From positions 1-34,476 of the forward strand of contig WFPA01000279.1 in the NCBI GenBank assembly GCA_015487815.1: a stretch of DNA of 34,476 nt. The letters are read 5' to 3'. Of this stretch, positions 33,032-34,224 are shown in pieces. The notes beneath the pieces were generated by a model that saw only the letters and a list, made by a program, of their open reading frames with translations, was not told the DNA's origin and made no database searches. The stretch's first letter is position 1; each line of letters opens with the position of its first letter. The DNA comes from Albidovulum sp. (GTDB lineage Bacteria > Pseudomonadota > Alphaproteobacteria > Rhodobacterales > Rhodobacteraceae). Position numbers and translations under genes: made by a program.

Positions 33032-33111
33032 GCGCGGCGGCGTTTCGTGTTGATGTCCGCCTTTCTTCCAGATTGGATCGAATGAAGCCGCGGATCAACC
33101 CCGGGGTGCAT

Positions 33112-33585
33112 TCACCCGGCGCGAAGGCCCCGTGAACACTCCCCCGTCTCGAGTCGGGCCAGCCGGCCGGCGGCGTGGCGGGCGTGGCGCACCGTGAGCG
33201 CCCGGCGGCGGGCGTGGCCGAGGCGCCTTTCCGGTCCCATCCGCAGGATTTCGCCTTCGTGGTCGTCGGCGACGATCAGCCCGTGCTCCTCCGGCAGGAT
33301 CGCGCGGGGGAACGTCTCGGGCACGGCGAAGAAGAAGCGGTCGCACCACGGCAGGTAGCCCGGCCATTTGCGGTCGGTGACGAAATCGGTGCGCGATGAC
33401 TTGCACTCGACGATCCAGATCTCTCCGCCCCGCCCGAGTGCCATCACGTCGACCCGGCGGCCGCGCTCGGGCACGAACTCGACGACCGGCATCATGTCGA
33501 GGGAAAGGAGCAGTCGGCACACACCGCGCGCGAGGCGGCGTCCGGGAGGCATGACGGGTGTCGCGGAAGATGGGAGGAGAGGCAT
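33112..33585 (-). CDS. mmcB: MmcB-family DNA repair protein (PD-(D/E)XK type)
   Basis: MmcB proteins are small putative endonucleases linked to mitomycin C resistance and SOS induction in Caulobacter. The 157-residue protein has the nuclease-like core with Asp46 (RRVDVMAL) and Glu60-x-Lys62 (IWIVECKSS), then WPGYLPWCDRFFFAVPETFP, LPEEHGLIVADDHEGEILRM and a basic C-terminus. The ATG at 33603 lies inside the SOS box, so the ATG at 33585 (MPLLPSSATPVMPPG) is preferred; ATG 33552 is also possible. No ribosome binding site is visible before 33585, and the predicted transcription start falls near it, so the mRNA may be leaderless. Confidence 0.88.
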   Translation of the reverse strand: MPLLPSSATPVMPPGRRLARGVCRLLLSLDMMPVVEFVPERGRRVDVMALGRGGEIWIVECKSSRTDFVTDRKWPGYLPWCDRFFFAVPETFPRAILPEEHGLIVADDHEGEILRMGPERRLGHARRRALTVRHARHAAGRLARLETGECSRGLRAG

Positions 33586-33595
33586 GATCGCATGG

Positions 33596-33620
33596 GAACA
33601 CATGGCGAACAGCCCGTCAA
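33596..33620 (-). promoter_or_regulatory. LexA (SOS) box and promoter of mmcB
   Basis: The minus strand carries GTTC-N7-GTTC (GTTCGCCATGTGTTC, 33610-33596), the alphaproteobacterial LexA site. It lies directly downstream of a TTGACG -35 (33620-33615) and inside the 17-bp spacer to a weak -10 TCCCAT, an ideal position for repression. Confidence 0.8.
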
Positions 33621-33713
33621 GTGTCCTGCACGATGTGCTTCGGCCCGCCTATGTCATGCGCGGTTGCCCGGCGCTTCGGCCGCCCCGGTGCGGCCTGCTG
33701 CCCCATCTGTGGT

Positions 33714-34100
33714 TCAGGAGGCGAGAGCCTCTTCCCTCCCGATCGGCATCACGTCGTCGTCTTCGGTATAGCTGCCGGTCCGCACCTCGATCAGCTGCAG
33801 CGGCACCTTGCCGTGATTCTCTATGGCATAGGGCTTGCCGAGGGGGACGAAGACGGTGGCGTTCTCCTCGAGGAAGATCTCCCGCCCTTCGAGACGGATC
33901 CGCCCCGCCCCTTCGACGACGATGAAATGTTCGGCCCGGTGGTAATGGGCCTGCATCGGCAGCGCCGCGCCGGGGCGGATCACGAGATGGCGCACGCGAA
34001 AGCGCCGCGCCGCGAGCAGCTCCTCATGGGCACCCCAGGGCATGGCCCTGTCGCCCTGGCTGGGGGTGTCACCCTGGAACGGCATTTCCATGCGGGTCAT
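33714..34100 (-). CDS. Cupin protein (mannose-6-phosphate isomerase type II-like)
   Basis: A 128-residue single cupin resembling the C-terminal isomerase domain of bifunctional mannose-1-phosphate guanylyltransferase/phosphomannose isomerases. The first cupin motif is strong, MQAHYHRAEHFIVVEGAG, giving metal ligands His52, His54 and His58 or Glu57. In the second motif the usual G-x-x-H-R-L-E-N reads GKPYAIEN, so the normal fourth ligand His is replaced by Tyr91. The C-terminal LQLIEVRTGSYTEDDDV is typical. Whether it is catalytic is uncertain. ATG 34100 is preceded by GGGAGGG at 8 nt. The upstream gap is AT-rich and holds a direct repeat GGTAAA (34149-34154 and 34160-34165, 11 bp apart). Confidence 0.85.
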   Translation of the reverse strand: MTRMEMPFQGDTPSQGDRAMPWGAHEELLAARRFRVRHLVIRPGAALPMQAHYHRAEHFIVVEGAGRIRLEGREIFLEENATVFVPLGKPYAIENHGKVPLQLIEVRTGSYTEDDDVMPIGREEALAS

Positions 34101-34224
34101 GATGTATCCCTCCCGTCGTGTCCATGCCGTCAAGCTTCCCGACGAATCGGTAAACAAAAGGTAAATTTTCTGACGGATTTGAGGAAAATCTGGCCTCCCG
34201 CCCCGATTGCGCCTCATTTCGAAC

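Follow-up and report, generated by a model that had tools for sequence, protein, structure and literature searches.

The SOS box of Caulobacter crescentus is GTTCN7GTTC, and mmcB is an SOS-regulated gene that protects this species from mitomycin C, according to the available part of PMC9578287 (citing Lopes-Kulishev 2015), where MmcB is classed as a PD-(D/E)XK endonuclease. We analyzed an mmcB gene found in a 34,476-nt stretch of Albidovulum sp. DNA, a genome of the Rhodobacteraceae (this whole stretch is called the window hereafter). A first reading of the letters alone (the sequence-only reading) had mentioned the SOS regulation of mmcB in Caulobacter, and PMC9578287 indeed states it. The gene of the window and that of C. 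crescentus belong to the same family (the PF06319 match is also present in the Caulobacter control genome) and share the same GTTCN7GTTC type of operator, but a leaderless start does not appear in the account given by the available part of that paper.

Leaderless mRNAs have been described in Alphaproteobacteria: the accessible portions of the respective papers report 375 in C. crescentus (PMC4117421) and 171 in Sinorhizobium meliloti (PMC3616915), and the term LexA is absent from both main texts. Unlike these mRNAs, the mmcB case is predicted from comparative geometry and is tied to a LexA operator. The lexA gene of Mycobacterium tuberculosis is a leaderless SOS gene in which transcription and translation begin at the same position and for which the annotated start was shifted (PMC2897130, available part). 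The mmcB gene would resemble it as an SOS gene with coinciding starts and a relocated start codon, but phylum, box and gene are all different. In the accessible part of PMC5552922, the leaderless genes are not the damage-induced ones. The gene mmcB is absent from the main texts of PMC12700426, PMC6473078 and PMC4287350, and no title on leaderless LexA-controlled genes in this bacterial group appeared among the matches listed (subscription literature lay mostly outside their scope). LexA control of mmcB is already known from Caulobacter; the locked leaderless start and its architecture were not found described among the matches listed.

The mmcB locus and its SOS box

The mmcB gene is encoded on the minus strand of the window (Table 1) and its product is MmcB-like (PF06319, E 1.8e-42, in a profile search using the longer frame, where the score of 145 bits exceeds the cut-off of 22). 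The protein presents the D...ExK arrangement of a PD-(D/E)XK-type core, for which D46, E60 and K62 were chosen by motif. These three residues are invariant across the 108 rows of the protein alignment, and C61 is conserved in 106 (two of the 110 translated hits held a stop and were left out). A cupin gene is found upstream on the same strand and ends about 100 nt before the SOS box.

Read along the minus strand, the upstream region consists of TTGACG, 4 bases, GTTCGCCATGTGTTC, 10 bases and ATG 33585, which is the next in-frame ATG after 33603. From the first base of the box to ATG 33585 the distance is 25 nt, and from the first T of TTGACG it is 35 nt. The sequence-only reading had proposed that a GTTC-N7-GTTC box overlaps the most upstream ATG and sits between a -35 TTGACG and a weak -10; both statements hold at the level of the letters, and the -10 position overlaps the right end of the box. 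A consensus scan of positions 33100-34200 found no sigma-70-type promoter at mmcB, so the promoter was inferred from the alignment of relatives on the box.

Table 1. Positions of the mmcB elements in the Albidovulum sp. window, and of the radical SAM gene in the same genome.
Feature	Position	Strand	Remarks
mmcB coding sequence	33112..33585	-	157 aa + stop from the supported start; near-fixed box-to-ATG spacing in relatives
Start codon ATG; proposed +1 on its A (33585) or a few nt away	33583..33585	-	spacing comparison
Predicted LexA operator (SOS box) GTTC-N7-GTTC, GTTCGCCATGTGTTC	33596..33610	-	exact match
-35 element TTGACG	33615..33620	-	5/6 to TTGACA; TTG position conserved in relatives
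Weak -10 position TCCCAT	33592..33597	-	3/6 to TATAAT; -12..-7 of ATG 33585
Upstream in-frame ATG inside the operator	33601..33603	-	box offset 7; not likely the start
PA0069-family radical SAM gene	L193:1001-1945 = G000:C278:12620-13564		ATG 27 nt after box

The GTTC-N7-GTTC pattern was found twice in the window for 0.50 expected, and at least two occurrences were obtained in 8 of 100 shuffles. Since such a pattern is unsurprising in 34 kb, the location of the box has to carry the argument. The whole Albidovulum genome contains 56 boxes, against 25 matches for the reversed control pattern, and a good part of the 56 may be chance matches. The same genome encodes LexA (PF01726, E 4.1e-18) and RecA (E 3.8e-146), and both genes are preceded by a GTTC-N7-GTTC box in the opposite orientation (beginning 151 nt before the ATG of lexA and 86 nt before that of recA). 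Among the relatives sampled, all 29 lexA hits have the box, as do 23 of 30 recA loci, at variable distances. Seven relatives (L257-L260, L271, L273 and L275) present two overlapping lexA boxes 11 nt apart.

A matrix built from 75 mmcB boxes of other genera was used to rank the 56 boxes: the mmcB box ranked 8, recA 13 and lexA 15. With its flanking base, the mmcB box of the window scores 15.0, when the 5th percentile of the relatives' own boxes is 15.2, and it drops out of the top ten once promoter positions are added. The box flanks and the -10 of Albidovulum sp. are among the poorer ones relative to its relatives. The second box of the window (6823-6809, minus strand) was considered as another LexA site and set aside as probably a chance match (rank 39 of 56). 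The boxes ranked 1 and 3 (L174:539 and L030:1515) precede genes that resemble uvrA and uvrD by eye.

Conservation of the box and its distance to the start codon

We collected 110 mmcB loci by protein similarity in two sets, composed of the 30 best loci from the 43 genomes that matched among 61, and of 80 of 193 confirmed relatives. One locus was removed as a duplicate (L126, whose upstream sequence is identical to that of L048), leaving 109 loci that include the window's own. An exact SOS box was found near the gene in 77 of them. In 13 of the 32 remaining loci, a box with one mismatch lies at the usual distance from an in-frame ATG (GTTT is the left half in 12 of them), compared with 0-2 such boxes at control distances; the last 19 of the 109 loci lack both an exact box near the gene and a one-mismatch box at the usual distance. 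In the same-genus genome sampled (G001, locus L054), the box occupies the same place, with a box-to-ATG distance of 25 nt as in the window. Five loci from Boseongicola and Silicimonas MAGs (L065, L067, L073, L119 and L124) present a near-identical CTTGCCTTTTGCRTCAATTTGTCCACCC stretch before mmcB in place of the box.

The distance between the box and the start codon is nearly constant. Measured from the initial G of the box, an in-frame ATG falls at 24-29 nt in 74 of the 77 box-bearing loci (24 nt in two loci, 25 in six, 26 in 38, 27 in 17, 28 in ten and 29 in one), and the rule is broken in three (L044, L120 and L132). Across the 109 loci, the 74 exact boxes at this distance compare with 0-7 at five other distance windows, a placement that chance does not account for; for the 77 box-bearing loci, in-frame ATG counts range from 3 to 9 in six other 6-nt windows. 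The spacing varies with a standard deviation of 0.96 nt against 11 nt for the N-terminal length, and 3 to 18 codons separate the locked ATG from a conserved codon across loci. Because the spacing is nearly fixed whereas the length of the N terminus varies, the ATG appears to stay with the promoter: on this comparison, the start codon is tied to the promoter and not to the protein, whose N terminus drifts.

Relatedness among the loci was evaluated by clustering the proteins at 70% identity. The locked loci fall into 15 clusters, every one of them with a spacing of 24-29 nt, and clustering of all loci yields 24 clusters, 17 of which have a locked representative. For the 38 loci with a spacing of 26 nt, the average identity between pairs of sequences amounts to 0.25 in the region preceding the -35, to 0.47 between the box and the ATG and to 0.32 across codons 2-7, which suggests that the shared spacing does not simply reflect recent ancestry.

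These distances favor 33585 over 33603 as the start codon, as the sequence-only reading had suggested, and ATG 33603 is not a likely start because it lies upstream of the inferred transcription start. The same ambiguity is common among the relatives: in 50 of the 74 box-locked loci, the locked ATG is preceded by a further in-frame ATG, GTG or TTG (an ATG in 24 of them). The spacing would therefore fix the start codon of this DNA-repair nuclease gene where start calling is ambiguous.

Promoter geometry and the predicted leaderless start

The -35 element follows the same geometry. The first T of a TTG precedes the box by 8-10 nt in 67 of the 77 box-bearing loci and the ATG by 33-37 nt in 65 of the 74 box-locked loci, the latter distance being exactly 35 nt in 43. 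Seven of the nine box-locked loci without a TTG at 33-37 nt have CTGGAC there. Positions -12 to -7 are enriched in A/T across this set: 42 loci have A at -11, 44 have T at -10 and 53 have T at -7, out of 74. With 35 nt from the -35 element to the A of the ATG, +1 falls on that A, so transcription of mmcB probably starts on the A of ATG 33585 or close to it, which predicts leaderless translation.

We then compared the sequences preceding the start codons, with a Shine-Dalgarno core defined as GGAG, GAGG, AGGA, AAGG or GGTG. The comparison kept 20 of 30 recA and 27 of 30 lexA loci (those with an ATG at the aligned start) and includes genomes from outside the family. None of the 74 mmcB starts is preceded by a core, in contrast to all 20 recA starts and 20 of the 27 lexA starts; within Rhodobacteraceae only, the counts are 17 of 17 for recA and 13 of 19 for lexA. 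The absence at mmcB is partly forced because the operator occupies the site and overlaps the tested region; in the box-to-ATG spacer alone, a three-base purine match is present in 13 of the 74 mmcB loci. In the window, the predicted anti-Shine-Dalgarno pairing is +0.9 kcal/mol before 33585, versus -2.5 kcal/mol before 33603. In contrast to lexA of M. tuberculosis, most of the Rhodobacteraceae lexA genes compared present a Shine-Dalgarno core, and their box-to-ATG distances vary.

We also searched for mmcB in a wider set of 289 genomes, of which 137 matched. Thirty loci from this search, 56 fetched stretches (hand-picked to spread over families) and four additional family genomes taken from the 61-genome search made up 90 loci, 82 of them outside Rhodobacteraceae. 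The exact box was found in only three of these 82 loci (with the ATG at 24, 27 and 29 nt), and a LexA box at mmcB as a trait of the whole class was rejected on this sample. For the 72 non-family loci taken into the -10 analysis, the -10-like score peaks exactly at -12 from the most upstream ATG (1.64, against a mean of 1.13 and a standard deviation of 0.15 over 35 offsets), a value reached in none of 2000 random rotations. Because of this peak, mmcB looks leaderless more widely.

Considering the box, its conservation, the near-fixed promoter-to-ATG distance and the lack of a Shine-Dalgarno core, we think it likely that mmcB has a LexA-controlled promoter with a transcription start at or within a few nt of ATG 33585, and that its mRNA is leaderless or nearly so. 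LexA bound to GTTCGCCATGTGTTC, in the spacer between the -35 and the -10, would block RNA polymerase. Upon DNA damage, RecA would be activated and LexA would cleave itself, and transcription would begin on the A of ATG 33585 or a few nt from it. The resulting mRNA would have no or almost no leader, and ribosomes would thus initiate at the 5' AUG, with no Shine-Dalgarno sequence involved, and produce a 157-aa MmcB of the PD-(D/E)XK nuclease type. The two main proposals of the sequence-only reading, LexA control and leaderless translation of mmcB, gain support from these comparisons: exact boxes at most of the loci, LexA and RecA encoded by the genome with the same box type at their own genes, and a -35-to-ATG distance in the window equal to the most frequent one. 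If true, part of the SOS response in these bacteria would be translated without Shine-Dalgarno sequences. The role of leaderless translation in DNA damage could then be tested directly, recA and lexA serving as internal controls that have leaders.

The observed spacing could also reflect the geometry of the operator and the promoter rather than an exact coincidence of +1 and ATG, with a LexA-controlled mRNA carrying a short leader (about 3-12 nt) devoid of a Shine-Dalgarno sequence. The range of 24-29 nt and the purine matches in 13 of the 74 spacers fit this alternative, but we consider it unlikely given that the most frequent -35-to-ATG distance is exactly 35 nt, which is where +1 stands in a standard promoter, and that the non-family peak falls exactly at -12. 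Since the upstream cupin gene runs in the same direction, read-through could also express mmcB. One may even imagine that mmcB is expressed mainly by this read-through or from another promoter, that the box is a relic and that translation begins elsewhere, for instance at 33603 or 33552. The short distance from the end of the cupin gene to the box, the weakness of the mmcB -10 and a scan that found no terminator-like site on the minus strand between the cupin gene and the box are all compatible with this scenario. It seems quite improbable, however, as the box, the -35 and the spacing are conserved in most of the loci sampled, the pairing before 33603 is weak and no purine-rich stretch is visible by eye before 33552.

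Finally, boxes do arise by chance in windows of this size, and the reversed control pattern accounts for 25 matches in the genome against 56 for the box itself. That the mmcB box is one of these fortuitous matches, with mmcB outside of LexA control, is nonetheless hardly credible considering that the box is found at the same place in the same-genus genome and in exact form at 77 of the 109 loci.

The radical SAM gene and boxes at other genes

The best box-plus-promoter score of the 56 genomic sites belongs to a PA0069-family radical SAM gene (NF033668, E 2.5e-117; Table 1). Within Rhodobacteraceae, the box is present in 14 of 16 radical SAM loci and an in-frame ATG lies at 26-28 nt in 12 of these 14; L327 and L332 deviate in spacing, and L316 has an additional in-frame ATG at 16. 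Outside the family, the ATG is at 34-40 nt in all eight box-bearing loci. In several of these eight, a -10-like hexamer is seen by eye 6-8 nt before the ATG, so that they may be leaderless in another register. Shine-Dalgarno strength did not differ significantly between family and non-family radical SAM loci (11 versus 10 loci; p 0.26).

These patterns lead to a broader scenario, whose chances we see as even: mmcB would be ancestrally leaderless in Alphaproteobacteria, and a LexA operator would later have been fitted into the -35/-10 spacer in Rhodobacteraceae, leaving the promoter-to-AUG geometry unchanged. Together with the radical SAM gene, mmcB would form a small leaderless branch of the SOS response read by 5'-AUG initiation, recA and lexA keeping their leaders.

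Leaderless geometry as a general rule for SOS boxes was largely rejected. We searched 31 family genomes and left out one (G024) for its repeats. On both strands of the other 30, a box followed by an ATG after 9-13 nt was found 320 times, versus 265 times for an ATG after 29-33 nt, an excess of only about two per genome. Among 17 box-plus-ATG frames inspected, four resemble the radical SAM gene by eye and one is mmcB. The G024 genome presents 51 box-plus-ATG matches (e.g., on contigs C11, C12 and C15), whereas the other 30 genomes average about 11. A dispersed short repeat of the GTTCATGC type is, by eye, the source of this excess.
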